NCBI RefSeq assembly: GCF_002072955.1
Contig: NZ_LPUF01000001.1
Span: 2,316,896 to 2,380,895, forward strand
Direction of reading: 5' to 3'
DNA: 64,000 nt
Origin: Methyloprofundus sedimenti
GTDB lineage: Bacteria > Pseudomonadota > Gammaproteobacteria > Methylococcales > Methylomonadaceae
Made by a program: the position numbers and the translations under genes. The notes below the pieces were generated by a model, which did not search any database, was not told where the DNA came from, and saw nothing but the letters and a program-made list of their open reading frames with translations. Position 1 is the stretch's first letter. Every line of letters begins with the position of its first letter. Of this stretch, positions 19,649 to 36,773 are shown piece by piece.

Positions 19649-20632
19649 ATGAACCCAGAAATTGCACGCCGCTTCAGGCGCTTAGGTACACTCACAATTT
19701 TCGCAGTCTACTTTGTTATATTAGTAGGCGGTATCGTCCGTGCTTCAGGCGCAGGCATGGGGTGTCCTGACTGGCCTACTTGCTTTGGCCAACTGATTCC
19801 GCCGACTAGCGTAGCTGAATTACCTGATAATTATCATGAAATTTATGCCGTTGGTTATGCCAATACCGACTTTAATGTCATCAAAACCTGGACCGAATAC
19901 CTTAACCGCCTTACTGGCGTTACGATTGGTTTTTTGATTTTTTTAACCCTTTGGGCATCTCGCGCCTATCTGAAAACAGATAAGCAGGTGTTTTATTTAT
20001 CCTTAGCCGTATTCCTGTTAGTCGGCTTTCAGGGCTGGTTAGGTTCTGTGGTGGTAAAAACACACTTGCACCCCTTAATGATAACTGCACATATGCTACT
20101 CGCTCTGTTCATAGTCGCCTTATTAATCTATGCCATTGCGCGTTCGCAAAATGATTTATTACGCCGGATTGATATCTCTGAATTACCAGCTAAATTCAAA
20201 ACTGTTTTGCTTGTAGCTATGGGCTTTACCTTGTTACAAGTGGGTATGGGAACACAGGTCAGAGAAGCCGTAGATTTAATTGCCACGCATCACAACTATA
20301 TAGACCGCGAATACTGGCGCGATAGCTTCCCGATAATTTTTTACATACACCGCTCATTTTCTGCTGTTATATTATTCACCAATCTATGGTTAGCCTGGAA
20401 AGTGTATCAATCTGTTGATAAAAATAGCTTATTATTCCGTCTCGCCTGTGTTCTGGTCGGGTTAATAATTACCGCTATTCTTGCCGGCGTATCTTTAGAC
20501 CGCTTAGGTATGCCGCCAGTAGCGCAGCCGATACATTTATTGATGGCAAATTTAATATTTGGCGTACAGTTTTTTATCTTTATCTGCATCAGTTATGCAG
20601 CTAAAACAACACCTCAAACCGTGATACCGTAA
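19649..20632 (+). CDS. ctaA: Haem A synthase (CtaA/Cox15)
   Basis: This 327-residue inner-membrane enzyme oxidises the C8 methyl of haem O to make haem A for aa3-type oxidases. Eight hydrophobic segments are visible. Motifs are VRASGAGMGCPDWPTCFG after helix I, EYLNRLTG with the first His replaced by Asn in the EYxHR motif position, KTHLHPLMITAHM, FYIHRSFSAV and AQPIHLLMANLIF. The EYLNR variant is notable because the usual motif is EYxHR. No cytochrome oxidase subunit genes are nearby. Confidence 0.9.
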   Translation: MNPEIARRFRRLGTLTIFAVYFVILVGGIVRASGAGMGCPDWPTCFGQLIPPTSVAELPDNYHEIYAVGYANTDFNVIKTWTEYLNRLTGVTIGFLIFLTLWASRAYLKTDKQVFYLSLAVFLLVGFQGWLGSVVVKTHLHPLMITAHMLLALFIVALLIYAIARSQNDLLRRIDISELPAKFKTVLLVAMGFTLLQVGMGTQVREAVDLIATHHNYIDREYWRDSFPIIFYIHRSFSAVILFTNLWLAWKVYQSVDKNSLLFRLACVLVGLIITAILAGVSLDRLGMPPVAQPIHLLMANLIFGVQFFIFICISYAAKTTPQTVIP

Positions 20633-20708
20633 AATTATTTTATACGGGTTACTTACCTATTTCTGATGAATACGCTGCGCTGTTTTCATCCAACATACTG
20701 AGACTCTG

Positions 20709-22853
20709 ATGCTAAAAAAATTCTTAAAATGGCTGTTGACTTTTGTTTATAAAATTGAAATAAAAGGCTTGGAGAATTACAACAAAGCAGGCGATCGCGT
20801 ACTTATCATTGCCAATCATACCTCCTTTTTAGACCCCCTATTACTGGGTGTTTTCTTACCTGACAATATTACGTTTGCAATTAATAGTCATATTGCCGAA
20901 CGCTGGTGGTTAAAGCCTTTTCTGAGTCTGTCCCAGGTTTTTCCTATGGACCCGACTCACCCTATTTCTTTAAAAAATTTAATCCATTACTTACAAAAAC
21001 CCTGTAAAACAGTTATTTTTCCCGAAGGCCGGATTACTGTTACCGGTTCATTGATGAAAATATACGACGGTACCGGAATGGTTGCCGATAAATCCGGAGC
21101 AACAATTCTCCCTATCCGTATAGAAGGCGCGCAATATACGCATTTTTCACGTTTACATAATATTGTCCGGTTACGTTTTTTTCCTAAAATTACCCTGCAA
21201 ATTCTCCCCCCTACGCACATTTCAATTGCTAAGGATTTACGTGGAAAAGATCGCCGTCATGCCAGCGGTTTGGTGTTAACTGACATCATGAGCGATATGA
21301 TATTTGCCACCAGTCACTATAAACAATCGCTATTTGCTGCGCTGCTGGAAGCTAAAAAAATACATGGCGGCAAACACACTGTTGCCGAAGATTTAGACAG
21401 GATTCCCTTATCCTATAACACACTGATCACTCGATCTATTGCGATAGGTAACGCACTGACCAGGATCACCGAAAAAGGGGAAAATATCGGTGTTTATCTA
21501 CCCAATAATTGCAAAACACTGAATGTTGTTTTAGGCCTGCAATTGCATGAGCGCACACCAGCCATGTTGAATTACTCAACGGGTGCATCAGGCATGCTTT
21601 CAGCCTGTCATACGGCAAAAATTAAAACCGTCCTCACATCACGTCGTTTTATCGAACTCGGAAAATTTGCTGAAGATGCACAAACATTGTCAGAAAATAT
21701 CAATCTTGTCTTTCTGGAAGATTTAGCCAAAAACATTGGTACTATTGATAAACTAAGTGCATTACTACAAGCTAAAACAGCTGACTTATGGTATCCCCGT
21801 GTTGAACCCAACCCAGATAACCCTGCTGTAGTGCTATTTACTTCGGGCTCGGAAGGCGCACCTAAAGGTGTGGTATTGTCACATAAAAATATCCTGGCAA
21901 ATCATAAACAGGTTTCTGCGCGCATTAACTTTAATGCCCAGGATACCGTGTTAAATTTTTTGCCGATGTTTCATTCTTTTGGTTTTACTGTCGGTACCAT
22001 GTTGCCCATCATGAATGGCATGACTACCTTTTTCTACCCATCGCCATTGCATTACAGCATTATTCCAGAAATGGCTTATGAAACCAGCGCTACTATTATC
22101 TTTGGCACCAATACATTTTTAGCTGCCTACGGAAAAAAAGCCCATGCTTATGATTTTTACAATATCCGCTATGTGGTTGCAGGCGCTGAAAAGCTGCATG
22201 AAAATACCCGACAATTGTGGGCTGACAAATTTGGCATCCGGATATTAGAAGGCTATGGTGCGACTGAAACCAGCCCGGTTGCTGCAGTTAATACTCCGAT
22301 GTTTTATAAAACAGGCACTGTGGGTCGCTTAATGCCGGGCATGCAATACAAACTCGAAGAAATTCCAGGTATTGAAAATGCAGGTAAACTGCATCTTTAT
22401 GGGGAAAATATTATGCGCGGCTACTTGCTGGCAAATAATCCGGGTCAGCTTGTACCGCCCTACTCCCTTTATGGTGAAGACTGGTATGATACCGGTGACA
22501 TAGTGCATGTCGATGCAGATCAATATATTTCCATTCGCGGGCGTAGCAAACGGTTTGCAAAAATTGCCGGTGAAATGGTGTCTTTAACGGCTACCGAACA
22601 ATTAATCAATGATATCTGGCCTGATGCACAACACGTAGTAGTCTGTATTCCAGAAGAGAGAAAAGGTGAACAGTTAGTACTTATTACCACTCAGAAAAAT
22701 GCCACCAGTAAAGACCTCGCTGCACTGGCCAAAGGCGTCGGGAGCATTAATTTACCAAAAAAAATCATTACTGCAGAGCATGTGCCCGTGCTTGCAACCG
22801 GGAAAATTAATTATATTGAAGCAACTGAATTAGCCCTGGATTATTTTAAATAA
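20709..22853 (+). CDS. aas: Acyltransferase / acyl-ACP (AMP-forming) synthetase fusion, Aas-like
   Basis: This 714-residue protein has two parts. Residues 1-200 are a PlsC-type acyltransferase with NHTSFLDP (HX4D), and FPEGRITVTGS. Residues 210-714 are an ANL-type AMP-forming ligase with LFTSGSEGAPKGVVLSH, GYGATETSP, YDTGDIVHVD and a C-terminal lysine region ATGKIN. In E. coli, Aas loads a fatty acid onto its bound acyl carrier protein and transfers it to lysophosphatidylethanolamine. The LplT-like permease that would supply lysophospholipid is encoded separately at 9213-10670. No MFS domain is fused here. Confidence 0.9.
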   Translation: MLKKFLKWLLTFVYKIEIKGLENYNKAGDRVLIIANHTSFLDPLLLGVFLPDNITFAINSHIAERWWLKPFLSLSQVFPMDPTHPISLKNLIHYLQKPCKTVIFPEGRITVTGSLMKIYDGTGMVADKSGATILPIRIEGAQYTHFSRLHNIVRLRFFPKITLQILPPTHISIAKDLRGKDRRHASGLVLTDIMSDMIFATSHYKQSLFAALLEAKKIHGGKHTVAEDLDRIPLSYNTLITRSIAIGNALTRITEKGENIGVYLPNNCKTLNVVLGLQLHERTPAMLNYSTGASGMLSACHTAKIKTVLTSRRFIELGKFAEDAQTLSENINLVFLEDLAKNIGTIDKLSALLQAKTADLWYPRVEPNPDNPAVVLFTSGSEGAPKGVVLSHKNILANHKQVSARINFNAQDTVLNFLPMFHSFGFTVGTMLPIMNGMTTFFYPSPLHYSIIPEMAYETSATIIFGTNTFLAAYGKKAHAYDFYNIRYVVAGAEKLHENTRQLWADKFGIRILEGYGATETSPVAAVNTPMFYKTGTVGRLMPGMQYKLEEIPGIENAGKLHLYGENIMRGYLLANNPGQLVPPYSLYGEDWYDTGDIVHVDADQYISIRGRSKRFAKIAGEMVSLTATEQLINDIWPDAQHVVVCIPEERKGEQLVLITTQKNATSKDLAALAKGVGSINLPKKIITAEHVPVLATGKINYIEATELALDYFK

Positions 22854-23289
22854 TCACGGCGTGCCAGGTATGATAATCACCTACAGAGCTGTCCGCCTGC
22901 TATGAAACTACTTATATTGTATTTTTACAGATATTATGCATCAATCCGCTTTAATGCTAGAGATGCAGTTCGGAGTTGAATTCACCTATTGATTAATAGT
23001 GGGAAAACTAATAAAAGGAATGATACTACACCATTGGATACATTAGTTCGTAGAGCGTAGTAACAGACTTTCTGTTATCATACCCGTATTTTATTAACAA
23101 GAACATTCGTCCTGATTTTTTTGATATTCACTAACAAATCAGACAGATTAGACATGATATTAATATTCTAACTTTTTGCCTTGTTTCCCTACAATATTAA
23201 CAAGAAAATCAGGCGCATTTACCTGCTATCCATTTATTACATTTATTCTTTTTATTACTCTCTACAGACTGCTTTATCAAAGGGCTATA
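22854..23289. other. Intergenic region, nothing recognised
   Basis: These 436 AT-rich bases between convergently arranged genes contain no supported ORF, RNA gene or clear terminator. Confidence 0.5.
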
Positions 23290-23934
23290 TTACTTTTTCA
23301 GAAAATCTAGAATTATATTGGTCAAAGCATCTGCCTGTGATGTTTTAAAGATATGCTGCGCATGGGCGCTACCTGGAATTAATTTGAGCATTTTAGGCTT
23401 TGGGGCTTTGTTATATGCGACTTTAAGTCCTTTGGCCAGATATTCATCTGCGCTGGCAATAAATAATAAATCTCCTTTTAGCTTCTCAGCTTGATATACA
23501 CTCGCTGGTGATAATAAAATCAGTTGATTTATGCTGCCCGGCTCTGAAAACACACTCGCCTTTGCAGTCGCAGAGCCTCCCATGCTAGCACCTAATACCG
23601 ATATTTCACTGATGTCAGACTGGGTCTTTAAAAAATGTATTCCCGCTAAAATATCCTGATATAAAGCACTTGATTGACTACCTTTTGTAGACTTACCGTA
23701 GCCTCTAAAATCTATCGCCAGGACAGTGTAATTATTATCCAGTAGCTGTTGCTCAAATACACCCCAGCTTTCTTTATTAAAAATAGCGCCATGTGCTAAT
23801 AAAACTGCATGAGAACCACGTTTTTGTAGATGGGCATAAATCGTAGCATTATCTTTTGTACTAAAATGCACTTCATTTGCAGACAAATTAACACTGAATA
23901 GCACAAGATTAACAATTAAAAGTAGTTTTTTCAT
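23290..23934 (-). CDS. Secreted alpha/beta hydrolase
   Basis: This 214-residue protein has a signal peptide (MKKLLLIVNLVLFSVNLSA, cleavage before NEV) and an alpha/beta-hydrolase fold. The oxyanion region LLAHGAIFNKESW comes first. The nucleophile elbow is GASMGG, the acid lies in IASADEYLA and the His in PGSAHAQHIF, completing Ser-Asp-His. The small size leaves little room for a lid. It is predicted to be a periplasmic esterase or dienelactone hydrolase-like enzyme; the substrate is unknown. The gene stands alone. Confidence 0.85.
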   Translation of the reverse strand: MKKLLLIVNLVLFSVNLSANEVHFSTKDNATIYAHLQKRGSHAVLLAHGAIFNKESWGVFEQQLLDNNYTVLAIDFRGYGKSTKGSQSSALYQDILAGIHFLKTQSDISEISVLGASMGGSATAKASVFSEPGSINQLILLSPASVYQAEKLKGDLLFIASADEYLAKGLKVAYNKAPKPKMLKLIPGSAHAQHIFKTSQADALTNIILDFLKK

Positions 23935-24060
23935 ACCAATATCCTTTATAAACAGCCCAACTCAGTTGTTTCAATCTAACTAGAATATATCAATATGAGT
24001 TATGCTACGATATATGCGTACTGATTAACTTAACATAACAAAGTCTCTTTTGCACTGCCC

Positions 24061-26034
24061 ATGATCGATAATGCTAATCACCATTCAACGCTTCATCAAA
24101 CGGCAAACTGCATACTAAAACGTGACGTTGACGACCTACAAATCATTCCATACCTGGCTGTTAAACTATTACGTTTAACAATTGACAATACTGCTCGTGC
24201 AGCCGAACTGTCAACATTATTATTAAGCGAACCCTCTCTCGCTGAAAAAGTACTCAGCAGTGTTAATTCAGTCGTGTTTTCACCCAATCAAAAAATAAAA
24301 TCGATTCAGCATGCAATTAAAATTCTAGGGGATTCAAAGGTAAGACAAATAGCTTTAAACCAGTTAATTTTCAACAAACTGATATATCAAAAAGCTAATT
24401 TCGAATTCGAGCAACTTTTTTTTTGGCAACATTGCTTATTTGTCGCGACACTGGCACGCATTATCGCTACCAGCTTAAATCATGATGACCCTGATGTGCT
24501 ACATAGCGCTGGTTTATTACATGATATAGGCAAAATAATTCTGGAGACACATGCAAAGATCAACTATAGCGCTTTTATCCGACACTGTGAGGGCAATATT
24601 GAACCCTCTCCTCAGAGTGAACATGTTTTTTTTGGTTTAAATCATGCTGAAATAGGCCTGGTTTTCTGTCAACAATGGAATATACCAAAACAAATTACTG
24701 CAAGTGTTTACTGCCACCATGTTATGCCTGACGATAATAGTCAATTTCTCGATTGTAAACTCGAAATCGCCATCATCAGCCTGGCCGACTACATTGCCAG
24801 CTTACAAGGCATAGGCTCAAATACAGTTAAGCAGACGCCTGTATTACATCCTGACGTTTTAGAACAGCTGGATATTAAAAAAATAAATATTCAGAAATTA
24901 TTGAATACTGCTGATAATGAAATGCAAGATAGTTGCGCGATTTTTAATATAAAATTTCCAAATATCTATAAATTACGGGCCGCTTTAGTTCAATCCGCTA
25001 TTTTATGCAGTTCACAAAATACACAGTCTAATTTATTAGCAGGTAACATATCAGTAAGCAGTTTGACCATCCCTCACAGAAGCCTTAATCCAGATGAAAT
25101 AGTGCCTGCTACCCTGGCAGCCATTCAGCAGGATTTTCATTTTGACCGCCTAATCATGTTGAATATAAACCCAAAACAACGTAATTTGGAAACAACATAT
25201 ACCTGGCCGGAATCACTGCATAATAGCTCCTTGCAACATTTTAATATAAAGATAGATATATTACCCAATACTCATTTAAGAAGTTTACGTGAACGTAAAG
25301 CTGTGATTATTAGCAACAATCAACCTGAAAATAAAGTTTTCCTTGAGCCTCTCAATATTGATGAATGTTTGTTTTTTCCAATCGTAAGCAATGAGCGACT
25401 TGTGGCCCTGCTTTATGCTGATAACCACACTAGTTACCGGTCAATAGAGCCGGAATGCATCAACCATATCGAACCTATTATCCATGAACTAGGTATTGCA
25501 CTGGCAAATGCACAATGTTTTATGCAGGAAAAAAACAGGGCAGAACTTGATTCACTCACAGGTTTATCAAATAATCGGATGCTAACAGAGCTTATAAACA
25601 GCACCTTTAAATTAGGTCTTCAACAACTACGTCACATTGCAGTCGGGTTTATAGACATTGACTATTTCAAAAATTTTAATGATACCTGTGGTCATCAAGT
25701 TGGCGATGAAGCACTGGTAATGGTTGCTCAGATCATGCGCTCCCTGACTCGACCAAGTGATTTTATAGGCCGCTATGGTGGAGATGAGTTTGTATTTATC
25801 CTGCAAAATACTGACAAGCACGGGGTACACAGCTATGCAGAGAGGATCAGACTGGAAGTTGAGCAACAAGGAAAGATCCTTAGCAGACAGTTTAATGGAC
25901 ATGAAATCACCATAAGCATCGGCGTCAGCCTATATCATCAAGAATTTGATAGCTATGCCAAAATGATTAGTGCTGCTGATTCTGCAATGTATCAAGCAAA
26001 GCAGAAAGGTAGGAATTGCGTGGTCGTGATATAG
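24061..26034 (+). CDS. HDOD-GAF-GGDEF signalling protein
   Basis: This 657-residue cytoplasmic protein combines an HDOD domain (about 20-220), a GAF-like sensor region (about 335-475) and a diguanylate cyclase domain (about 480-657). The HDOD part keeps GLLHDIGKIILETHAK. The cyclase motif RYGGDEF is intact and RPSD lies five residues before it, an RxxD product-inhibition site. It is predicted to make cyclic di-GMP under control of the N-terminal sensors. It lacks membrane segments. It is the second intact cyclic-di-GMP gene in the window, with the PAS-GGDEF-EAL protein at 1835. Confidence 0.92.
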   Translation: MIDNANHHSTLHQTANCILKRDVDDLQIIPYLAVKLLRLTIDNTARAAELSTLLLSEPSLAEKVLSSVNSVVFSPNQKIKSIQHAIKILGDSKVRQIALNQLIFNKLIYQKANFEFEQLFFWQHCLFVATLARIIATSLNHDDPDVLHSAGLLHDIGKIILETHAKINYSAFIRHCEGNIEPSPQSEHVFFGLNHAEIGLVFCQQWNIPKQITASVYCHHVMPDDNSQFLDCKLEIAIISLADYIASLQGIGSNTVKQTPVLHPDVLEQLDIKKINIQKLLNTADNEMQDSCAIFNIKFPNIYKLRAALVQSAILCSSQNTQSNLLAGNISVSSLTIPHRSLNPDEIVPATLAAIQQDFHFDRLIMLNINPKQRNLETTYTWPESLHNSSLQHFNIKIDILPNTHLRSLRERKAVIISNNQPENKVFLEPLNIDECLFFPIVSNERLVALLYADNHTSYRSIEPECINHIEPIIHELGIALANAQCFMQEKNRAELDSLTGLSNNRMLTELINSTFKLGLQQLRHIAVGFIDIDYFKNFNDTCGHQVGDEALVMVAQIMRSLTRPSDFIGRYGGDEFVFILQNTDKHGVHSYAERIRLEVEQQGKILSRQFNGHEITISIGVSLYHQEFDSYAKMISAADSAMYQAKQKGRNCVVVI

Positions 26035-26157
26035 CTCTGTATCTGGTATATTTTTGCTTCCTCAGTAATAGCCTAAACCTTAAATTTTTAGGATAATAGA
26101 GTTCAAGAACCTATTTTCTATCACCTTATCAACAAAATAATAATAAGGATAAAACTC

Positions 26158-27660
26158 ATGCTGGATTTTTTGATCAAATATCGGGGGGTATTTGTTGTTC
26201 TTTTTGTTCTCCCTGCTTCGATGCTTTTTAAACTGTATATGGGCACCCGAAATCGCCTGGTATTCTGGTTAAATAGCGCCCCGGAAAAACATGCAGATAA
26301 AGTAATCAAAGTTCAGCAACAAGTCAAAGACTGGCAACAGAAAACCGGCGGCAATATTCCCATGTGTACAGCTCGTCCTGGATGGCAAACAATGTCCCTG
26401 AAACAGGGAAATTATAAAAAAACTCATTTTCAGGTTAATGTCAGCTTAATGGATGTTTTGGAAATTGATGAAGAAAAAGGCACTGTGCGCGTTGAACCTA
26501 TGGCGAATATGGGGCAAATATCGGCGATGTTAAAGCCTCTAGGCTGGTCTTTGGCTGTAGTTCCTGAATTAGATGCTTTAACTGTCGGAGGATTAATTAA
26601 CGGTTTTGGCATTGAATCCAGTTCACACAAATATGGTCTATTTCAGCATATTTGTGAAAGTCTGGAAATCGTCACAGCTAATGGCGAATTAGTTAAATGT
26701 TCTAAAGAAGAAAATAGTGAACTCTATTATGCGATTCCCTGGTCATATGGTTCTCTTGGTTTTTTAGTCTGTGCGGAAATTAAAATTGTACCGAGTAAAG
26801 ATTTTGTACATATCACATATATTCCTTATAAGGACAAACAAGTTTTTGTAGCGCGCTTTACTGAAGAATCATTAAAACCCTTTGATGAAGCGTATGATTT
26901 CATAGAAGGCTTGATGTATTCTGAACAAGAAGGTGTCTTAATGCTGGGTAACTTTGTCGATAAAGTGCCCGCAGGGGATACCAAAAATGCATTGAATAAC
27001 TTCTGGAAACCCTGGTTTTATGAGCATGTGCGCAGTATCTTGAAGCAAGACAAAGAACAGGAAGAATATGTGCCATTGCGTCATTATTATCACCGACATA
27101 CGCGGTCTTTTTTCTGGGAAATGGCTCAAATCATCCCCTTTGGTAACAGCATCTGGTTTCGCTACCTGCTGGGCTGGATGTCACCGCCTGAAATTTCTTT
27201 AATAAAACTAACTGAGTCAGCAGCGATTCATGAATTATATGATACCCATCATATGGATCAGGATTTCTTATTACCCATCAGTACTCTGGATAAATCGCTG
27301 AGCTACTTTCACCAGGAAGTCGATTTTTATCCTTTATGGCTATGTCCGATGCGTTTATTTGAAACACCTATCCGAGGCATGGTCAACCCATTAGCCAATG
27401 AACAAATGTTTGTTGATGTCGGAATTTATGGTGAGCCTAACGTCGCTAATTTTAATGCCAAAGAAACGATGCGCAAACTAGAAGCGTTTATGCGTGATAT
27501 TGGTGGTTTTCAGGCTCTATATGCCGATACTTATCAGACACGTGAAGAATTGCGCGAAATGTTTGACCATCATTTACTGGATAAATTACGCGAGCAGACC
27601 GGTGCCTTAAAAGCTTTTCCTGAGCCTTTTGATAAGGTATCGCGAGCAGCGAGAACTTAA
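26158..27660 (+). CDS. Delta(24)-sterol reductase (DHCR24) homologue, FAD-dependent
   Basis: This 500-residue FAD-binding oxidoreductase is closely similar over its full length to animal DHCR24 (seladin-1), which saturates the sterol side chain at C24. An N-terminal membrane segment (RGVFVVLFVLPASMLFKLYM) is followed by the PCMH-type FAD domain. Shared blocks include TARPGWQTMSL, KKTHFQVNVSLMDVLEID, VRVEPMANMGQI, PELDALTVGGLINGFGIESS, SHKYGLFQHICE, PLRHYYHRHTRS, IPFGNSIWFRYLLGWM and YADTYQTREELREMFD. No squalene epoxidase or cyclase gene is in the window. In a sterol-making methanotroph it would reduce the side chain; the function is inferred from homology. Confidence 0.88.
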   Translation: MLDFLIKYRGVFVVLFVLPASMLFKLYMGTRNRLVFWLNSAPEKHADKVIKVQQQVKDWQQKTGGNIPMCTARPGWQTMSLKQGNYKKTHFQVNVSLMDVLEIDEEKGTVRVEPMANMGQISAMLKPLGWSLAVVPELDALTVGGLINGFGIESSSHKYGLFQHICESLEIVTANGELVKCSKEENSELYYAIPWSYGSLGFLVCAEIKIVPSKDFVHITYIPYKDKQVFVARFTEESLKPFDEAYDFIEGLMYSEQEGVLMLGNFVDKVPAGDTKNALNNFWKPWFYEHVRSILKQDKEQEEYVPLRHYYHRHTRSFFWEMAQIIPFGNSIWFRYLLGWMSPPEISLIKLTESAAIHELYDTHHMDQDFLLPISTLDKSLSYFHQEVDFYPLWLCPMRLFETPIRGMVNPLANEQMFVDVGIYGEPNVANFNAKETMRKLEAFMRDIGGFQALYADTYQTREELREMFDHHLLDKLREQTGALKAFPEPFDKVSRAART

Positions 27661-27716
27661 TTTTGTATTGATTTTAGAGAGATGCATCAATATAAATTAG
27701 GCAAACTAATTCTTTG

Positions 27717-27765
27717 TGAGCGCGAGCGACTTATCTGCATTTTGCAGGCATACTGTCAGCGCTCA
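27717..27765. other. Nested inverted repeat after the DHCR24-like gene
   Basis: TGAGCGC (27717-27723) pairs with GCGCTCA (27759-27765), and inside it CTGCA-TTT-TGCAG forms a second hairpin. There is no strong U-tract on either strand, so a terminator is possible but not certain. No ORF is supported between 27661 and 27942. Confidence 0.4.
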
Positions 27766-27942
27766 TAAAAAGATCAGTGTATTATGCTTAATTTCTTAGA
27801 ATAAAAAAGTTGAAAAGGGTAACGGAATTACGCCCGACACCTATTTCAGTTGAGTATAACTGAAAAAAACCTCCGCTTTAAGCCCTCTCAAATCCCTACA
27901 TTCAATAGCAGCTGTGTTATCAGAGTTACTTTCAAGCGCTGG

Positions 27943-28506
27943 TTATTTATGTGTGGAAGATGCCATTACAACCAAAGTCCAGCCTCGGAAACTAATATCA
28001 ACGCTCAGTGAAAATGCTATAAACCATAGAGATGCAGGCCAATCAATCCAGATCATTATTCCGAGTAAAATCGAAATTAACCCCGTCAATCTGTTAGCAA
28101 AAGGGTTAGGGATTTCTGCAACGGATAACAAAATATTTCGGTATATGCCCTGAGTAAGCATATAACCAACAATCAAAAGGTTCAAATTATTAGCTGCTTC
28201 ACCTTCGGGACTTAAAAAAACCAAAAAGCCGACCACAACATCTAATATTCCACCCTGCATATTATAGAGAAAACCTTGTGCGGTTTCTGACGCCAAAGCA
28301 TCGATACAGCGAAAAATACCTACTACTAATACCACTAAACTAATAACAGGAATCCATGAAGCATTTTCACCCAGAAGGTATACATTAGGTGAAATCAGGC
28401 TTAATACAGCCATTAAAATGCCAACACAGATCATTACTGTGCCACGGATTTTGAACCACTTGGGCCTTGAAGTATAATGAATGAATTCTGCGTTTATTTT
28501 TGACAT
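27943..28506 (-). CDS. HdeD-like (DUF308) membrane protein
   Basis: This 187-residue membrane protein has six predicted hydrophobic segments in pairs, as in the HdeD/DUF308 family linked to acid resistance in E. coli. Typical pieces are IRGTVMICVGILMAVLSLISP, GGILDVVVGFLVFLSPEG and LISILLGIMIWIDWPAS. AGGT lies before the ATG. It is followed by no partner; the DUF1488 gene is just upstream on the same strand, 23 bases away, so the two may be co-transcribed. Function is not known beyond the family. Confidence 0.8.
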   Translation of the reverse strand: MSKINAEFIHYTSRPKWFKIRGTVMICVGILMAVLSLISPNVYLLGENASWIPVISLVVLVVGIFRCIDALASETAQGFLYNMQGGILDVVVGFLVFLSPEGEAANNLNLLIVGYMLTQGIYRNILLSVAEIPNPFANRLTGLISILLGIMIWIDWPASLWFIAFSLSVDISFRGWTLVVMASSTHK

Positions 28507-28529
28507 TATTTACCTATATTGTTTTATTT

Positions 28530-28787
28530 TCAAAGATTACTCAGGCTGATAAGTACAGAACCATCTTTTTCATAATGACCATTTTCGATGAGCTCTCTCG
28601 CTGCGTCCTGAATTACTTCTCTATGAAGATTAACTGATTGCATAGCGTTATCTTCAGTAGCGCCATATTTATTATGCAAAATTTTCAGGGGAATTCTGCA
28701 AAGTATCCTTTTTTTATCTAAAGTTGCTGCAATTGTAGCAACTTTAGTTGTGGCGTTCCAGCTCTCAAGTTTAGGAAAAGAAATCAT
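28530..28787 (-). CDS. DUF1488-like small protein
   Basis: This 85-residue soluble protein resembles DUF1488 proteins: an N-terminal FPxLESWNATTKVATIAATLD strand pair, CRIPLKILHNKYG, and the C-terminal half REVIQDAARELIENG with KDGSVLISLSNL. The family has no assigned function. It has AGAAG before the ATG and lies upstream of the HdeD-like gene. Confidence 0.65.
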   Translation of the reverse strand: MISFPKLESWNATTKVATIAATLDKKRILCRIPLKILHNKYGATEDNAMQSVNLHREVIQDAARELIENGHYEKDGSVLISLSNL

Positions 28788-29102
28788 AGTTTCTTCTCAA
28801 TCAGGGAGCCCTGAGATGCCGCAAATTTTTTACTTTTATTTATTATACCGTTCATTTTCATTTGTATAGCTCCTTAAAAATAGATAGATATGTATCGTTC
28901 TAATCAGTCAATCCTGCTCCACTTTAAATACTCTCTTTGCCCAATTTATTGAGAATGTAATAACGTGAGTCTAATTTGTCATTGTAAATTTCACCAACGA
29001 TCAATGTAGTATCTAGTGTCTGATGCTGATGCACTATAATCTGGAATTCTATTGGTAATGTATGCTGAAAATGAGGGCTTTTCTGGTTTAATTTTAACTA
29101 GC
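28788..29102. other. Intergenic region, nothing recognised
   Basis: These 315 AT-rich bases lie between the DUF1488 gene and the MurE-like gene; no ORF, hairpin or RNA gene is supported. Confidence 0.5.
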
Positions 29103-30260
29103 CTATACATTGCTAGAGCCTGATGTATATTTTTTGTAAAACTCAGGAAGGATTGCTTCCATACCAGGTTTTAGTTCATTTAAGATAGCTGTGCAAGCTA
29201 CTTCCCTGTCATCAAAATGAATCATTTCTGGCTTTAGAACCTGATAAATTTCATGTTCTTTTCCAGCTAGAAGTACAACATCATTATCTTGTGCATCATT
29301 AATAATAAATTCTATTGCCTTTGCTCTATTTTGAATCATCACATAGTGATCGAAATTCGAGCCTATCCCCGATTTGATTTCACCCATAATTAGCTGGCTA
29401 TCTTCCATGCTGCAGTTATCTTCTGTGATTACCAAGAAATCTGCAATATTACCGGCTATCTTTCCCATTTTGGCGCGCTGTCCAGGATCTCGATTTCCAC
29501 TACAACCTAAAAGTACTAATAGCCGCCCTTGTTGATTTAGAGCAATATTTTTCAGCGTTTTTAACACATTATCAAGACTATCAGGTGTATGTGCATAATC
29601 AACTAAGACCGTGAAGGCTTGCCCTGCATCAACAGCTTCTAAGCAACCTCTAGGTGGAGAACAGGAAGATAAAGTTTCCTGAATAATCTTTTCGGAAATA
29701 TTAATATGCCGAAGTATATTCATTGCTGCCTTAATGTTTAAAAGATTAAAGTGCCCTAAAAGCTTAGTTGTAAAATATATCGGTTCTTTTTTAAAGTGTT
29801 GTGGATAAATTGTATGTGCAGTGCCGTCACGCATAAAGCCTAACTTTGTCTGTTGATATGTGGCAAACGTTTTCTGGTAATCCAGATGATCTTCAGTAAT
29901 ATTAGTCAGTAATTTGATATTAAAATCAATATTTAAAATTCTGTCTTGGTCGATTTGTTCAGAAGATACTTCCATAATAAAATGAGTTCCCCCTTGTTCT
30001 AGGTATTCCCTCATTTGCTTTACAATATCAACTGATTCTGGTGTGGATAGGTCTTTATTGCCCGAGTTCAATGCACCTAATATAAAAGGTTTGTATCCTG
30101 CTGATTTTAGGACTTCTCCAATTAAGTACGAAACGGATGTTTTTCCGCTAGTTCCGGTAATGCCAATAACATAAAGATCCTTTGAAGGATGACTGCCAGG
30201 ATCTAACTTTATGGATGTCGAGCCTTTAGTAATATGAACTTTGCTTTGATGACCTTTCAA
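29103..30260 (-). CDS. Atypical MurE-like Mur ligase
   Basis: This protein (385 residues as counted from TTG) is a Mur-ligase related to MurE, which adds the third amino acid to the peptidoglycan stem. It keeps the ATP loop GITGTSGKT (33-41), MEVSSEQIDQDR, TNITEDHLDYQ, the carbamylated-lysine position YQQTK, GHFNLLN and DYAHTPDSL. It differs in three ways. The UDP-binding N-terminal domain is missing, about 50 residues of the central domain are absent, and the DAP-selecting DNPR motif reads DNCS (281-284). It is therefore unlikely to be the housekeeping MurE. The start is uncertain: TTG at 30260 is the only one in frame, and coding-like sequence continues upstream. Confidence 0.8.
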   Translation of the reverse strand: MKGHQSKVHITKGSTSIKLDPGSHPSKDLYVIGITGTSGKTSVSYLIGEVLKSAGYKPFILGALNSGNKDLSTPESVDIVKQMREYLEQGGTHFIMEVSSEQIDQDRILNIDFNIKLLTNITEDHLDYQKTFATYQQTKLGFMRDGTAHTIYPQHFKKEPIYFTTKLLGHFNLLNIKAAMNILRHINISEKIIQETLSSCSPPRGCLEAVDAGQAFTVLVDYAHTPDSLDNVLKTLKNIALNQQGRLLVLLGCSGNRDPGQRAKMGKIAGNIADFLVITEDNCSMEDSQLIMGEIKSGIGSNFDHYVMIQNRAKAIEFIINDAQDNDVVLLAGKEHEIYQVLKPEMIHFDDREVACTAILNELKPGMEAILPEFYKKYTSGSSNV

Positions 30261-30535
30261 CGAAAGTCTTTCACGCTTTGAAGGTAGCTGGGAATCAAAA
30301 TTATAATCACAATTTAGCTTAATCAGCTCTGAAGAAGATTGAGCTTTTTTATATGAGATATGTGGGCTTTTAGATACACGAGTTTCAGGTGTACGGGCTG
30401 TTTTTTCAGTCTCTTTTTTTACATGGTTATAAGACTGTTTTAAATTATGTGTTTCAAGGTTTTTAATTGAGTAGCCTCTTATTGTTTTTTTGAATATGAA
30501 ATTATAAATTTCAGATTGCTAGCTTTAGCTGCCAT
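30261..30535 (-). other. Possible frameshifted N-terminal extension of the MurE-like gene
   Basis: The frame of the MurE-like gene stays open upstream to a TAG near 30520 but contains no ATG or GTG. An ATG at 30535 opens the neighbouring frame for 18 codons (MAAKASNLKFIISYSKKQ) and stops. The stop follows seven A residues (30491-30485) phased as A AAA AAA. A -1 slip there would join them into a protein of about 477 residues, close to normal MurE length, although the Lys/Ser-rich extension does not look like the MurE N-domain. Confidence 0.35.
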
Positions 30536-30708
30536 GATAGTTTTTTAACTATTATCAGTTATGATGCTGCCTTTATGGCACTCTTTTAGCTGAAAAGTTC
30601 CTGGAGAGACGAGTGGCAAAATTTTAAACTACCTATTTTTTAAGTTCCGGTGTCTACATTGTTGTAGCGTAATCACACCACTCCCGTATTTAGTTAAATG
30701 CATAACAA

Positions 30709-31359
30709 TTAACGTTTATAGCGGAGAATTTGCCCGCGAAATGGCTCTGTTAGATATTCTGTGTTCTCAGGCTTACCTTGGCTATGCGAATAACCCAAAG
30801 TTATCATTTTTTTACTGAATCGAGCATGATAACTACGTCCAGGATCGACAATGATTACTTCACAATGCGGTTTTGCGTGCAGATTAATGAAACCGGATAA
30901 TAGATCAACATGATCGCCTTCATACAGTAAATCACTACCAACAATTAGATCAAACTTGCCTAAACCGCTCTTTTTATCACCCCATCCAGTGCGCACGAAA
31001 GGTATGGTTTTAGCTTTATTGAGTAGCGTATTTTCCAGCAAAAACTGTTCAGCTTCCGGATGATAGTCTGTAGCAGTAATATTTGCCAGGCGATGGTTCA
31101 GCATTAAACTTGTCAAACCGATCCCACAACCGACTTCCAAAATACGTTTTCCTGCAATTTTATAATCAAACAGGAGATGAGCAAGCACTTCACTCGATTG
31201 CCAGACAACACCGAATAATGACCAGATGGCTGATGATATGCCAAGTTTTTTGGCAATATCATCAACATCGAGATATTGTTGTTTATCTCGTAACGTTCGC
31301 AGATGAATATCGACATCACCAAATTCAATTGTTTGATAACAAACTCGTAACAAAGACAT
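30709..31359 (-). CDS. METTL21-like class I methyltransferase
   Basis: This 216-residue SAM-dependent methyltransferase is of the Methyltransf_16 type. Motif I is ILEVGCGIGLTSLML. The product-binding stretch GSDLLYEG corresponds to the D/E-x-x-Y motif of lysine methyltransferases of the METTL21 group. IWSLFGVVWQSSEVLAHLL matches the start of that family (G-x-x-W-x-x-S). The substrate is probably a protein lysine, but not known. The gene is 27 bases downstream of the cysteine-repeat gene's... opposite end: it lies to the left of 31387 on the same strand, so that gene is downstream in space but upstream in transcription. Confidence 0.82.
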   Translation of the reverse strand: MSLLRVCYQTIEFGDVDIHLRTLRDKQQYLDVDDIAKKLGISSAIWSLFGVVWQSSEVLAHLLFDYKIAGKRILEVGCGIGLTSLMLNHRLANITATDYHPEAEQFLLENTLLNKAKTIPFVRTGWGDKKSGLGKFDLIVGSDLLYEGDHVDLLSGFINLHAKPHCEVIIVDPGRSYHARFSKKMITLGYSHSQGKPENTEYLTEPFRGQILRYKR

Positions 31360-31386
31360 TAATTGTACACTCTTAAAAACATGCGG

Positions 31387-31983
31387 CTAGTAATCCGACG
31401 CGGGCAGTTCACACTGATCATTTAACTGAGCATAAGGTGGATTGCAGTCCCAATCATGTCCGGAATAATCGATATGAGCATTCTTCGGAACTATCAAGGG
31501 AACGCACATATCTTTTCTCGCCAAATATCCTCGTTCGCATTCCCACCCATCACCATAAATAGAATGCACGAAATACCCGTGCTCAGGTATCTTTACTGCA
31601 ACGCAAGTTTTATTCTGAGATTTGAAACCACGATCACATTGCCAATCATAGCCATTAGAATTCAAATAGGCATGGGCAGGTATCATAATAACAACGCAAA
31701 TTTTATCGTCCTTTCGGTAGCCCCGGTTACATTTCCAGCCATCTCCAAAAGGTGAATTTGTCAGGTACGCATTATCAGGCACCTTAATAGCATCGCAAAT
31801 ATTACCATTTTGTTGATATCCAGATTTACATTCCCATCCGCTCCCATAGGTTTGGGCATGAGCATTTTCAGGCATCACTTCATTATTGACTTTTGCAAAT
31901 ACAAGACTAGGGATACTAGTCGTAAGCATCAAAAGAATCAAAAGCTGAACTACATTGTCATTTGATGGTTGCTTTCCACTCAT
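31387..31983 (-). CDS. Secreted cysteine-repeat protein (five ~32-residue repeats)
   Basis: This 198-residue protein has an N-terminal signal segment (LLILLMLTTSIPSLVFA). The rest is five tandem repeats of about 32 residues. Each follows the pattern P-x-N/H-A-H/Y ... G-x-x-W-x-C-x-x-G-Y/F ... C-x-x-I-x-x, with two Cys per repeat, about 11-13 residues apart. Examples are GSGWECKSGYQQNGNIC, GDGWKCNRGYRKDDKIC and GDGWECERGYLARKDMC. Each repeat probably holds one disulphide in the periplasm or outside the cell. The family is not recognised. It probably shares a transcript with the methyltransferase to its left. Confidence 0.8.
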   Translation of the reverse strand: MSGKQPSNDNVVQLLILLMLTTSIPSLVFAKVNNEVMPENAHAQTYGSGWECKSGYQQNGNICDAIKVPDNAYLTNSPFGDGWKCNRGYRKDDKICVVIMIPAHAYLNSNGYDWQCDRGFKSQNKTCVAVKIPEHGYFVHSIYGDGWECERGYLARKDMCVPLIVPKNAHIDYSGHDWDCNPPYAQLNDQCELPASDY

Positions 31984-33048
31984 GAATAATTCCTTCTTGT
32001 AATCGTTGTATGCAACTAAATTTCATTGCTGGCATATTCGATAGTGTGAAAGTCGCTTGTTACAGATCAACTATAGCAAAGGTATCTGACGACAGAGATT
32101 CAATGAGGGGGAGGGAGTAAAGAGTGTTACTAGAATAAAATCTTTACCAGCCGTGCGCTATTGCAACTGTTCTTTGCGGGCCAGCCCGGTCATGGATTTA
32201 TTTTACTATACACCTAATTGGGTAATTTAGATATTTATAATATCTTCCCGATTTTTTCAAGCATAAATTAAACTCAAGTTTCGAATAAGTAATATTAAAC
32301 TTATATTAACCTACGGTTTAGGAGGAAGCGTAATCCAGGGGCTTTTACTACAAAAAAATTGAATGATTTCTATCTTATACTGGTCAGTTGTAAGTCCTGT
32401 CCAATGAGGACTTACAACTATCAATGTGGTGTCAATTTTAAAATAAGCGAAAACATAAAACTTTTTGAATTATTTTAAATTTTACTCATTGGAAGTAGTG
32501 GTATTAGAACCAGAGTTATTTATTCTAAGAGAAGTAGGCCATCAACTGCTTATCAAGTAACATGATTCCGCTCAATAAAGTCTGTACTTTGGGTATGCCG
32601 ACACTTTGGTTGGCTGGTCTTCTTTTTAGAAGAGTATCTCCGGGTTATAAAATAGTGAGAACTTAATCCTTATAGGAACGGGGGTTTAATAATACCCGAA
32701 AGTATGGCGCAGGATTTTAGCTTCACAGGTGTGTTAGGAAAGCAGGCGCATAGCAGGCTACGCAAATGGTTTTCTAGCGCGGCTGTGGAGTCAAAAGGCA
32801 ATTCAGACTCGGGCATTATTGAATTCTCGTTCCTTAGTGTCGACTGTGTGGATAGCGAGCTAACAGTTTGGCAAAGCCCTACCAACACTAGCTGGCCTGC
32901 TTTCCTGTTCAATTCAGCAAATTGAGAAAACGTCCAGTATCTGACCTTTCCACCTACACTTTATTGATGCTTTGGAAGCGGTCTTCACTACGTTGAATTA
33001 AAAATGCTAAACCTGTTTTACCGTATTGGAAAAAAAGAGCTATGCTAC
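31984..33048. other. 1-kb region without a supported gene
   Basis: Between the repeat protein and serB no convincing gene is seen. A perfect 13-pair inverted repeat lies at 32386-32419. From about 32670 to 32925 the sequence is richer in G+C, and both strands are open for 73-80 codons, but neither translation resembles a known family. GGGTTTAATAATACCC near 32685 is a short palindrome. The stretch may be the remains of a mobile element. Confidence 0.4.
32386..32419. repeat. Perfect 13-bp inverted repeat
   Basis: AGTTGTAAGTCCT (32386-32398) and AGGACTTACAACT (32407-32419) are exact reverse complements around an eight-base loop, GTCCAATG. No T-run follows on either strand, which argues against a simple terminator. 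Confidence 0.6.
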
Positions 33049-33690
33049 CTACAACAAATACGGTAACACGGCCTGCAAATCCGGGCTATCAACAAATATA
33101 TCCGCTTGATCCCGGACAATTTTACGCGCTACCACCCCGCCAAAACCTATACAAAAAGCACCCGCTTTTTTGGCTTCCATATCGGTATTGCCATCACCTA
33201 CAATAGCTAGATTTAAACCTGTCTTATTTAATTGGGCACAAACTTCAGCTTTTCCGCCATTCCTCGCTAAAGGAGATAGTTGATCGAAGTCTAAATAATC
33301 GCCATTGCAAGCGAATAAAACTTCAACTGCATGTACGTGGCTGGCATCAATATTTAATTTTGCTGCTAATGGCAAAATTGCCTGTTTTAACCCCCCACTA
33401 ATGATATGTACCTGTTTACCCTGCTGGTGTAATTTCTGAAAGACTTCTGCTACACCCTGAACCATTTTTTCGATATATAAATCAGCCAGCCAATCGATCC
33501 CTTTCTTATCAGGCTTGATCAACGCCAAGCGCTGCGCATAAATCGATTCTAAAGAAACTTCACCATTCATGGCAGCATTGGTTAATGCAGCCATTTCAGT
33601 ACCACAGCCAGCACGTTCAGCTAAAACATCAATGCCCTCTATCTCACTTAAAGTACTGTCACAATCAAAACAAATAATATCAAAACTCAT
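33049..33690 (-). CDS. serB: Phosphoserine phosphatase
   Basis: This 213-residue HAD-family enzyme carries out the last step of serine synthesis, hydrolysing O-phosphoserine. The nucleophile motif is CFDCDSTLS, where Asp-x-Asp-Ser-Thr is diagnostic for SerB. HIISGGLKQAI (motif II Ser), the Lys in GGKAEV, and VGDGNTDMEAKKAG (motif IV) are present. It is the short form without an N-terminal ACT domain. It lies 89 bases downstream of serA on the same strand, with a possible terminator between them. Confidence 0.93.
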   Translation of the reverse strand: MSFDIICFDCDSTLSEIEGIDVLAERAGCGTEMAALTNAAMNGEVSLESIYAQRLALIKPDKKGIDWLADLYIEKMVQGVAEVFQKLHQQGKQVHIISGGLKQAILPLAAKLNIDASHVHAVEVLFACNGDYLDFDQLSPLARNGGKAEVCAQLNKTGLNLAIVGDGNTDMEAKKAGAFCIGFGGVVARKIVRDQADIFVDSPDLQAVLPYLL

Positions 33691-33703
33691 CTTAGGCCCA
33701 TTT

Positions 33704-33738
33704 AAAAAAACTCTGTACAGCAGGCTTTAGCCTACTGT
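33704..33738 (-). terminator. Possible terminator or attenuator between serA and serB
   Basis: On the minus strand ACAGTAGGCT-AA-AGCCTGCTGT (33738-33717) forms a ten-position stem with one mismatch, followed eight bases later by seven T residues (33710-33704). It would act behind serA and just before serB. The gap between stem and T-run makes it imperfect. Confidence 0.4.
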
Positions 33739-33779
33739 GATTAATTTGAAATAGCAGAATAATAACCACTCTACTAAGG

Positions 33780-35363
33780 TTATAGCTCTATTTGTATCAC
33801 TGCTTTTACAGCGCCTACCTGACACAGCTCTTGTAACACCGATTCATCTAATTTCTCAGAAACACTGATCACAGCCATTGCATTCTGACCATCTTCAGCG
33901 ACACCGACCTGCATACGTGAGATATTAACATTAGCTTTACCTAGTACCGTGCTAATTGCAGCAATAACGCCAGGCTTATCTGCATGTTGCGTCACTAGTA
34001 AAACACCCTCTGGAATTACTTCGATTTCATACTCATTAATATTCACCAAGCGTGGATGTTTATCGCCTAATAACGTTCCAACCAAACTAATTTCTTCATC
34101 TCCGTAAAAAGCGGTCAATTTAACTAATGCCAGATAACCTGAAATCTTTTCAGTTTTTGATTCTGTTAAGGTAATACCCTGCCGTTTGGCGATATTTTCT
34201 GCATTGACACTGTTAACTGGTGTAGAAACATGGCTTTCTAACAAGCCCACTAAAGCTGCAACTGAAACTGAGCGCGCTTCTGCTTCTGTAGCTTTCCCCA
34301 AAAGAGAGACTTTAATGCCCTCTATAGGTTTAGTGGCTAAACCAGCCAGCACTTTACCAAGCCTGGTTGCTAAACCCATGAATGGTTGAGATTTTCTGAG
34401 TTTTTCGGCAGAAAGACGGGGTAAATTCAAAGCATTAATTGCTTCCCCGGTTTTTAAAAAGGTCACTGCCTGACGGGCGATTTCAACACTCACTGCCACT
34501 TGTGCTTCTCTGGTAGATGCACCTAAATGCGGCGTAAAAACGATGTTATCTAATGCTAATAATGGTGAATCTTTGGGTGGCTCGTGTTCATAGACATCAA
34601 GCGCTGCACCCGCAATATCTCCATTTTTAAGAGCATCGTATAATGCTGATTCATCAATGAGTCCACCACGGGCACAGTTAATAATCATGGCTGATTTTTT
34701 CATCATTGTCAGTTGCTTTCGACCAATAACTCCACGTGTTTTTTCTAATAGAGGGCAATGTAATGTTAAATAGTCTGCCTGTTGCACTAACTCCTCTAAG
34801 CCAACCGATTCGGCACCGCAATCAGCAAAAATATCGGGCGCTACAAATGGATCATAAGCAATGACGCGCATATTCAGCCCTGCTCCACGCTGTGCGACAA
34901 TACGCCCAATCGTACCAAAGCCTAGAATAGCCAAAGTCTTATGTGAAACTTCCGAACCCACTAATGTAGATCTTTCCCATTTTCCTTCACGTATCGATTT
35001 ATCAGCTTTAGGTAAATTGCGACTCAGGGAAAACATGTGCGCAATAGCCAGTTCAGCTGTGGTAGTCGCATTTGCATCTGGTGTATTCATGACAATAACC
35101 CCCTGCTCTGTTGCAGCGGGTATATCAACATTATCCACACCTATTCCGGCACGTCCGACTAATTTAAGGTTTTTTCCGGCACGTAGCACTTCATCGGTAA
35201 CTTTAGTATCACTGCGGATTAATAAAGCGTCATAATCAACAATCGTCTCGCACAATTGCTCATGACTCATACCAGTATCAATATGAACTTGTATGCCTTC
35301 TTGTTCAATTAAGAAGTTAACCCCTGCGTCAGCTAATTTATCGGATATAAGAATTTTTTTCAT
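33780..35363 (-). CDS. serA: D-3-phosphoglycerate dehydrogenase
   Basis: This 527-residue enzyme commits 3-phosphoglycerate to serine by NAD-dependent oxidation. It contains the substrate-binding RSDTKVTDEVL, GRAGIGVDNVDIPAATE, the NAD fold LAILGFGTIGRIVAQRG, the catalytic Arg in NCARGGLIDE, the Glu in DVYEHEPP and the His in FTPHLGASTREAQ. After residue 320 come an intervening (allosteric substrate-binding) domain and a C-terminal ACT domain with TQHADKPGVIAAIS, so it is the long type. Serine feedback through ACT is expected from the family. serB follows. Confidence 0.95.
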   Translation of the reverse strand: MKKILISDKLADAGVNFLIEQEGIQVHIDTGMSHEQLCETIVDYDALLIRSDTKVTDEVLRAGKNLKLVGRAGIGVDNVDIPAATEQGVIVMNTPDANATTTAELAIAHMFSLSRNLPKADKSIREGKWERSTLVGSEVSHKTLAILGFGTIGRIVAQRGAGLNMRVIAYDPFVAPDIFADCGAESVGLEELVQQADYLTLHCPLLEKTRGVIGRKQLTMMKKSAMIINCARGGLIDESALYDALKNGDIAGAALDVYEHEPPKDSPLLALDNIVFTPHLGASTREAQVAVSVEIARQAVTFLKTGEAINALNLPRLSAEKLRKSQPFMGLATRLGKVLAGLATKPIEGIKVSLLGKATEAEARSVSVAALVGLLESHVSTPVNSVNAENIAKRQGITLTESKTEKISGYLALVKLTAFYGDEEISLVGTLLGDKHPRLVNINEYEIEVIPEGVLLVTQHADKPGVIAAISTVLGKANVNISRMQVGVAEDGQNAMAVISVSEKLDESVLQELCQVGAVKAVIQIEL

Positions 35364-35453
35364 ATTAAACGCGTTTCTCGAATTAAGTACACTAAATAAG
35401 CTATTATTTTACCTGCTTTGCTATAATCTCATGAACTAAATTAATTAACTGTC

Positions 35454-36773
35454 ATGCTTGAATTTAACAAATCGCTTTTATCGGCTCATCTCTGGAAGCA
35501 TCGACTGGTTTTTTGGCTTGGTGCTATTTTTATAGGCTTATTAATTGCCGCCATGACTTTACTCAGCGAATGGGCGTCCGAGTTTTTTCGCAAGACCTCT
35601 GTGAGTTATCCCTGGTTTCAGTTTGTCACTCCTCCTGTAGGACTTGCGCTGATTGCCTGGATAACTTTTCGCTTTTTTCCGGGCAGTCAGGGCAGTGGTA
35701 TTCCTCAGATTAAAACAGCGCTGGAAATCCCCTATACTTTAAGTGAACGTAAAAAACTGGTTTCTCTCCGTATCGCGTTCGGCAAAGCTTTTTTACCTAT
35801 TTTGGGATTATTATCAGGCGCATCAGTCGGATTTGGCGGCCCTGCCGTCCATGTTGGTGCATCGCTAATGTCGTCTTTGGGTAAATTAGCTAACTTTCCT
35901 TCTCTGTATATGAGTAAGGGTCTATTATTAGCAGGTAGCGCTGCTGGCTTTGCGGCAATGTTTAGCGCCCCTTTAGCAGGAATTCTGTTCGCTATTGAAG
36001 AAATGGGACGCACACTGGAAGAGCGCATTAGCACTTTAGTGCTGACAGCGATTATTTTTTCCGGGGTAACAGCTTATTCAATTCTGCATCACACGATTTT
36101 TTTTACCGATAATACCTTAGATTTTCCTCTGGATAAAGAGTGGTTAGCCATTCCATTCTGCGGGGTTATCGGCGGTCTGTTAGGCGCAATATTTAGCCGT
36201 ATTATCGTTAGCGGTTACCATAAATTAAAGAAGCTACAGCTTCCTATTGTGCTAGTTGCCTTTGTCAGCGGCTGTATTATTGCCTTGTTTGGTTATTTAT
36301 CTCAAGGCGAAACATTTGGTACCGGCTACCAAATGGCTAAAAATATTATCTACAGTTCGGCATCAATTGATCCCATGTTACCGGTGTATAAAATGTTATC
36401 AACTTGTGCAACATTTTTTAGTGGCATTCCCGGCGGTATCTTTGTCCCTTCCATCGCCACTGGCGCTGCCTTTGGCGCCAATCTGGCACACTGGTTTCCT
36501 ATTGCCCCGACGCAAGTCATGATTTTACTGACTATAACTGCTTATTTTGCCGGCATGTTACAGTCCCCTCTCACTTCATTTGCACTGATACTGGATATCA
36601 CACATAGCCATGAAATTTCCATCCCCATCATTGCGGCAGCTTTTATTGCCTCGGGTGTTGCAAAACTGATTAATCCCCGGCCGCTTTATAGAGAGCTATG
36701 TGATGCTTTTCAACAATATCCAGTACCTGTAGCGACTACTGAAAAAGAAAATGTCCCGCAAGCAGAAAAATAA
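35454..36773 (+). CDS. ClC-family chloride transport protein lacking the gating glutamate
   Basis: This 439-residue membrane protein has the ClC fold. Selectivity motifs GSGIPQIK (80-87) and GGIFVPSIATGAAFG are present. The third motif, normally G-R/K-E-G-P, reads GFGGP at 126-130, so the gating glutamate is Gly128. The glutamate pair of the proton path remains (IEEMG, 181-185). Loss of the gating Glu uncouples proton exchange in studied ClC proteins, so this may be a channel. The thioredoxin gene starts inside its last codons (23-base overlap), so the two are co-translated. Confidence 0.88.
   Translation: MLEFNKSLLSAHLWKHRLVFWLGAIFIGLLIAAMTLLSEWASEFFRKTSVSYPWFQFVTPPVGLALIAWITFRFFPGSQGSGIPQIKTALEIPYTLSERKKLVSLRIAFGKAFLPILGLLSGASVGFGGPAVHVGASLMSSLGKLANFPSLYMSKGLLLAGSAAGFAAMFSAPLAGILFAIEEMGRTLEERISTLVLTAIIFSGVTAYSILHHTIFFTDNTLDFPLDKEWLAIPFCGVIGGLLGAIFSRIIVSGYHKLKKLQLPIVLVAFVSGCIIALFGYLSQGETFGTGYQMAKNIIYSSASIDPMLPVYKMLSTCATFFSGIPGGIFVPSIATGAAFGANLAHWFPIAPTQVMILLTITAYFAGMLQSPLTSFALILDITHSHEISIPIIAAAFIASGVAKLINPRPLYRELCDAFQQYPVPVATTEKENVPQAEK

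Follow-up and report, generated by a model that had tools for sequence, protein, structure and literature searches.

The deep-sea methanotroph Methyloprofundus sedimenti carries an intact gene of the DHCR24 family that, judging from the family of its product and the pathway with which it occurs, very probably encodes a sterol delta-24 reductase. The gene lies in the 64,000-nucleotide stretch of the genome that we analyzed (the window; Table 1), its product has a predicted VAO/PCMH fold, and members of its family co-occur with genes for sterol synthesis. DHCR24 in methanotrophs is already known, homologues from Methylococcales being in print (PMC4919349, PMC8788690). New here are the two lineages of DHCR24 that Methylococcales carry, the co-occurrence of DHCR24 with squalene epoxidase across phyla, and the broken copies in mussel symbionts.

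Table 1. Features of the window discussed in the text.
Feature	Position	Strand	Basis
HDOD-GAF-GGDEF regulator, directly upstream of DHCR24	24061..26034	+	Pfam
DHCR24-type delta-24 sterol reductase (predicted), 500 aa	26158..27660	+	family match, alignment, tree, model
N-terminal helix (predicted), residues 9-39, hydrophobic at start	26182..26274	+	AF2 model; alignment
FAD-binding (PCMH-type) domain, residues 78-182	26389..26703	+	Pfam FAD_binding_4
SerB-like frame (presumed)	33049..33690	-	synteny
SerA-like frame (presumed)	33780..35363	-	synteny marker

The gene, its product and the proposed reaction

The frame runs uninterrupted from ATG to stop, with AAGGA 8 bases 5' of the start codon. Its GC content (40.2%, versus 40.9% for the window) and GC3 (36.4%, versus 37.1 +/- 4.4 for 27 chosen window ORFs) match the window, and the gene therefore looks native. 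Scans for promoters and terminators returned no more sites than shuffled sequence did, and an Rfam search of window positions 20000-36000 gave nothing at gathering score. FAD_binding_4 (PF01565; 58.9 bits, cut-off 26.4) was the sole Pfam match of the protein, and no DHCR24 model matched it in Pfam or NCBIfam. An AlphaFold2 model (mean pLDDT 87.5), for which 29 proteins of the window and the loci were aligned, points to a VAO/PCMH fold: the 50 PDB matches listed for it, with TMq of 0.51-0.62, are cytokinin oxidases, L-galactonolactone dehydrogenases and DprE1. In the alignment with human DHCR24, the N-terminal helix of the model falls on the hydrophobic stretch at the human N-terminus; it is likely a membrane anchor.

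None of the 45 PDB chains that match the window protein at E <= 0.001 is named DHCR24, so the comparison with eukaryotes relies on two reference sequences that do not come from a database record, human DHCR24 and Arabidopsis DWF1. In local alignments with these two, the window protein is identical at 257 of 491 positions (52.3%) and 209 of 496 positions (42.1%), respectively. Because of the FAD_binding_4 score and the full-length relatives present in many genomes, the similarity to DHCR24 is far beyond chance. The human alignment is full-length and colinear, extending from the hydrophobic stretch to the last residues, and the blocks singled out in an earlier note on this DNA (PELDALTVGGL, PLRHYYHRHTRS and the N-terminal hydrophobic stretch) are all present. 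The window protein thus shares colinearity, the hydrophobic stretch and a YYHRHTR block with the animal and plant enzymes, but it differs from them in its bacterial host and at two of six human residues that are mutated in desmosterolosis (R94, R103, E191, N294, K306 and Y471): relative to the human reference, R94, E191, N294 and Y471 are kept, whereas R103 is replaced by K82 and K306 by E289.

We infer the activity, the substrate, the electron donor and the place in the pathway order as follows. The protein would be a flavoenzyme of the VAO/PCMH fold, probably membrane-anchored, whose role would be to saturate the sterol side chain at its delta-24 double bond. Its FAD would take up two electrons, probably from NADPH, and the reduced FAD would pass a hydride and a proton to C24-C25. 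The acceptor would be an intermediate made from lanosterol, most likely a 4,4-dimethyl or 4-methyl 8(14),24-dienol, and its reduction would yield the side-chain-saturated sterols of methanotrophs. No assay of DHCR24 from a methanotroph came up in a non-exhaustive literature search. Sterols of methanotrophs serve as biomarkers (PMC13277303), and the saturation of their side chains depends on the delta-24 reduction step. The same reaction is predicted for Bsr, a different C-24 sterol reductase from Myxococcota that belongs to the GGR family, whose proteins are said to be FAD-dependent (Lee and Welander 2025, PMC12004948). Bsr belongs to another protein family, however: no GGR-family (Bsr-type) match to the window protein was found at E <= 0.001 in Pfam and NCBIfam, and FAD_binding_4 alone matched in Pfam.

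DHCR24 and the genes of sterol synthesis

The earlier note had put the gene forward as a candidate for the step that reduces the side chain, had proposed looking for squalene epoxidase (SE) and oxidosqualene cyclase (OSC) elsewhere in the genome, and had held that a lack of sterol genes would tell against the idea. Both were found. In the assembly (4,290,526 bases, 6 contigs), an oxidosqualene-type cyclase (TIGR01787, 685 bits, cut-off 323; narrower TIGR03463, 650 bits, under its cut-off of 851) adjoins SE (PF08491, about 296-297 bits, cut-off 20; at a loose threshold this model also matched two weaker frames in the same genome and 2 of 14 control genomes) on contig 3, apart from DHCR24 on contig 1. 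About 170 kb from this pair, also on contig 3, is a P450 with a C-terminal ferredoxin, near which lie a 200-aa protein with no Pfam match, a Rieske oxygenase, SdmA (NF052579, 690 bits, cut-off 600), and an SdmB-like reductase. Place, size and the fused ferredoxin suggest that the P450 is CYP51 and that the 200-aa protein is the 8,14-Bsr of PMC13277303. The C-14 reductase family PF01222 had no match in this genome and none in any control, so that search is uninformative about absence. With sterol genes present elsewhere in the genome, the genomic half of the test has come out in favor of the candidate, whose proposed role is further supported by the P450-ferredoxin fusion and SdmA.

One gene of this pathway appears to be damaged. 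The SdmB-like reductase (L143:7632-8426, +, contig 3) belongs to a family of 328 positions, but its frame stops at codon 264 and the remainder seems to sit in another frame. This could signify a decaying pathway in which the C24 reductase of this strain is idle. We consider this highly unlikely: the break may be an error of sequencing instead of real decay, 9 of 18 Methyloprofundus genomes have an intact DHCR24 frame, and PMC13277303 lists M. sedimenti among sterol producers and states that SdmAB is not essential in M. capsulatus.

Co-occurrence with the sterol pathway is the strongest evidence for the function of DHCR24. In a set of 201 genomes from the family, 42 carry DHCR24 (37 in full, 4 broken or at a contig edge, 1 as a fragment) and 65 carry SE; 39 have both, 3 (63%, 82% and 99% complete) have DHCR24 alone, 26 have SE alone and 133 have neither (Fisher p 1e-20, kinship ignored). 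SE-positive genomes without DHCR24 are thus common (26/65), and these, like the 3 DHCR24 genomes that lack SE, count against the proposed function. We also hand-picked 16 DHCR24 genomes from 80 loci, from Methylothermaceae, Bacteroidota, Competibacteraceae, Chromatiales, Myxococcota and Chlamydiota. SE was present in 15 of them (E <= 1e-15) versus none of 14 controls, and an OSC-type cyclase, in no case over the strict TIGR03463 cut-off, in 14 versus one control (Bacillus subtilis); 14 genomes, from several phyla, have both. Bacterial DHCR24 itself spans several phyla. In two Methylothermaceae loci (L035, with a DHCR24 70% identical to that of the window, and L034), OSC and SE directly follow DHCR24. 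No cyclase was found in a Nannocystis MAG despite its DHCR24, and neither SE nor OSC in the Parachlamydiaceae MAG L078, whose DHCR24 (L078:9977-11482, +) pairs with the human reference row in one tree (97/92), the pairing being open in the outgroup tree; this enzyme may act on host sterols.

Published observations bear on the same association. DHCR24/ERG4 homologues are listed in Methylobacter and Methylococcus; M. luteus has a homologue and only C-24-saturated sterols, Methylosarcina lacus has no homologue and its sterols are not saturated at C-24, and Cystobacter fuscus has a homologue for C-24 reduction but no such sterols (Wei 2016, PMC4919349). For Methyloprofundus INp10, DHCR24 appears among the gene symbols given in the legend of a figure (PMC8788690), and it is predicted in Nannocystis (PMC10152446).

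The genome survey also yielded several minor observations. Nine Bacteroidota MAGs (L038, L043, L053, L058, L062, L071, L076, L084 and L104) carry DHCR24, SE and an OSC-type cyclase, one cyclase being partial and one in two pieces, and are likely sterol makers. In the Chromatiales MAG USCg_Taylor (G212:C186), a single 1184-aa frame (L155:298-3852, -) fuses SE to an OSC-type cyclase, and with them the two first sterol steps (FAD domain from residue 69, SE 216-452, cyclase 537-1162); no bacterial SE-cyclase fusion was mentioned in the accessible text covered by a limited literature search. SE is fused to squalene/phytoene synthase in a Polyangiaceae MAG (L156:252-3314, -) and, with the opposite domain order, in the Flavobacteriales MAG SKYG26 (L157:615-3152, +).

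Two lineages of DHCR24

When three other FAD oxidoreductases serve as the root, the tree unites all 34 DHCR24 rows, human DHCR24 and DWF1 among them, in one clade (100/100). Within it we distinguish type A copies (70-91% identity to the window protein), from Methyloprofundus, its sister genus g7 and Methylothermaceae, and type B copies (44-51%), from other Methylococcales, Bacteroidota and one Competibacteraceae row. Type A includes a direct orthologue in the congener Methyloprofundus sp. INp10, in which we found no substantive difference, and copies in four MAGs titled Methyloprofundus (87-90% identical to the window's) and in Methyloprofundus genome G086 (86%). Type B includes the copies of Methylobacter luteus (L060) and Methylococcus capsulatus Texas (L082); although they share order and family with the window gene, type B copies group with those of Bacteroidota and not with type A. 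Each type occupies one side of a branch in the tree without outgroup (100/100 for both), with supports of 68/100 for type A and 98/100 for type B when the outgroup is included, and a topology that places all 30 copies sampled from methanotrophs in a single clade was rejected (p-AU 0.00025; the question was posed after the first trees). A grouping of types A and B had a support of 81/10 in the first tree and was not rejected with the outgroup (p-AU 0.39). Methylococcales thus carry two DHCR24 lineages, which suggest that the late step was acquired separately from the core sterol pathway.

Two other readings of the window gene bear on these trees. Its 52% identity to the human reference across nearly the whole length could reflect a gift from an animal or another eukaryote, such as a mussel host, and three row sets gave p-AU values of 0.049, 0.082 and 0.224 for a grouping of type A with human. 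Type B with human gave 0.13 and 0.18 in two row sets. Type A is no closer to the human reference than type B: six type A copies, including the window's, are 51.8-54.0% identical to it and type B copies L019 and L023 are 54.8 and 54.9% identical. The window gene is thus not specially animal-like; the earlier note was right in calling it so only in the sense that it is a DHCR24 orthologue, and the tree with eukaryotic sequences that the note proposed, while uniting all DHCR24 rows, came with no test that placed the window gene with animals. Methylothermaceae MAGs also carry type A, as do Methyloprofundus MAGs that bear no symbiont label; its stem is long (0.63 changes per site), and the GC and GC3 of the window gene are native. 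A eukaryotic donor is thus extremely unlikely, and transfer from animals was neither supported nor firmly rejected over the three row sets, with the two eukaryote reference sequences. Human and DWF1 as one clade was itself rejected (p-AU 0.008 and 0.0075), both being single reference rows and DWF1 being long-branched.

The protein could instead share the fold but reduce a C=C bond in a non-sterol lipid, as is proposed for BfaA of 10-methyl fatty acid synthesis, likewise an FAD-binding oxidoreductase, whose suggested substrate is a 10-methylene fatty acid (PMC5660069). The best six plasmid-borne relatives, compared in BfaA's stead, are 23-27% identical to the window protein over 74-83% of its length, and those that are annotated are FAD-binding oxidoreductases; of three inspected, two adjoin SAM methyltransferases, an arrangement resembling bfaAB, and the third is unannotated. 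The DHCR24 rows, among them the human and DWF1 references, stand apart from these BfaA-like relatives (100/100), however, and they co-occur with SE. Moreover, no bfaB-type SAM-dependent methyltransferase directly adjoins the window gene; the closest frame that by eye looks like a methyltransferase lies 3 kb off. We therefore regard a fatty acid reductase as very improbable, and a sterol delta-24 reductase as the preferred reading.

The history of this reductase may differ from that of the cyclase and epoxidase. Between the window genome and Methylothermaceae L034/L035, identity is 70% for DHCR24, 50% for OSC and 44-45% for SE (BioB, 68% in L035), whereas between the window genome and type B genomes it is 44-51% for DHCR24, 68-72% for OSC (seven genomes) and 57-62% for SE (eight); type B loci L049, L072 and L083 gave only 34-36% cyclase and 23-25% epoxidase matches. 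DHCR24 transfer independent of OSC is only suggested by these values, because the OSC tree failed to reject Methyloprofundus, g7 and Methylothermaceae as one clade (p-AU 0.25). A viral origin was also considered and rejected: none of 49 IMG/VR pattern matches encodes a relative, and 12 viral fold matches at E <= 0.001 are FAD enzymes only 9-16% identical.

Mussel symbionts and the surroundings of the locus

DHCR24 is intact and full-length in nine of the 18 Methyloprofundus genomes, broken in two and missing from seven, three of which are only 66-71% complete; 17 of the 18 have SE, and 17 have a cyclase more than 70% identical (one partial). The two broken copies belong to gill symbionts of Bathymodiolus platifrons and B. 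japonicus (G113 and G100). The B. platifrons copy has two frame breaks, after codons 142 and 463, and the HDOD-GGDEF gene next to it is broken as well; errors of assembly could account for the breaks. The B. japonicus copy is split near codon 452 by an insertion sequence of 1533 bp that encodes a DDE transposase and has an 8-bp target duplication. The cyclase and epoxidase frames are open in both. A literature search found no earlier report of a broken symbiont DHCR24, which is no proof of absence.

Takishita reportedly proposed in 2017 that the B. platifrons symbiont supplies a 24-unsaturated intermediate. Broken DHCR24 together with open cyclase and epoxidase frames would fit the handing of a delta-24 sterol to a host assumed to have its own DHCR24, and makes the idea of sterol sharing between host and symbiont testable. 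According to PMC13401447, enzymes for early sterol intermediates are missing from the genome of the mussel and are expressed by the symbionts; PMC8788690, the source of the B. japonicus symbiont assembly, describes the symbiont drafts as composites with many insertion sequences, and lifestyles are not separated in its tree. A broader scenario, possible though doubtful, is that DHCR24 was acquired twice in Methylococcales, that the type from the deep sea passed between Methylothermaceae and an ancestral Methyloprofundus independently of cyclase and epoxidase, and that symbiotic Methyloprofundus repeatedly lose DHCR24 and give the mussel a 24-unsaturated sterol, with the host DHCR24 performing the last reduction, such that the hand-off would be fixed by gene decay.

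The neighbors of DHCR24 in the window are the HDOD-GGDEF regulator and a frame that matched no family. The regulator gene is also beside DHCR24 in L026, L029, L030, L031, L036, L037 and L011, which implies no sterol role. Two frames that we take to be SerB-like and SerA-like lie further downstream; the former adjoins DHCR24 in L025, L027 and L036 and is about 5.4 kb away in the window, and the latter served as a marker to find the locus in genomes without DHCR24, among which G145 holds no DHCR24 remnant in its serA-serB stretch. The window also contains a MurE-like frame of 385 aa with a TTG start (29103-30260, -), which in Pfam matches the middle and C-terminal Mur ligase domains only, and three frames that by eye are transposase-like (41672-42667, 51366-52337 and 52372-53070, all -).
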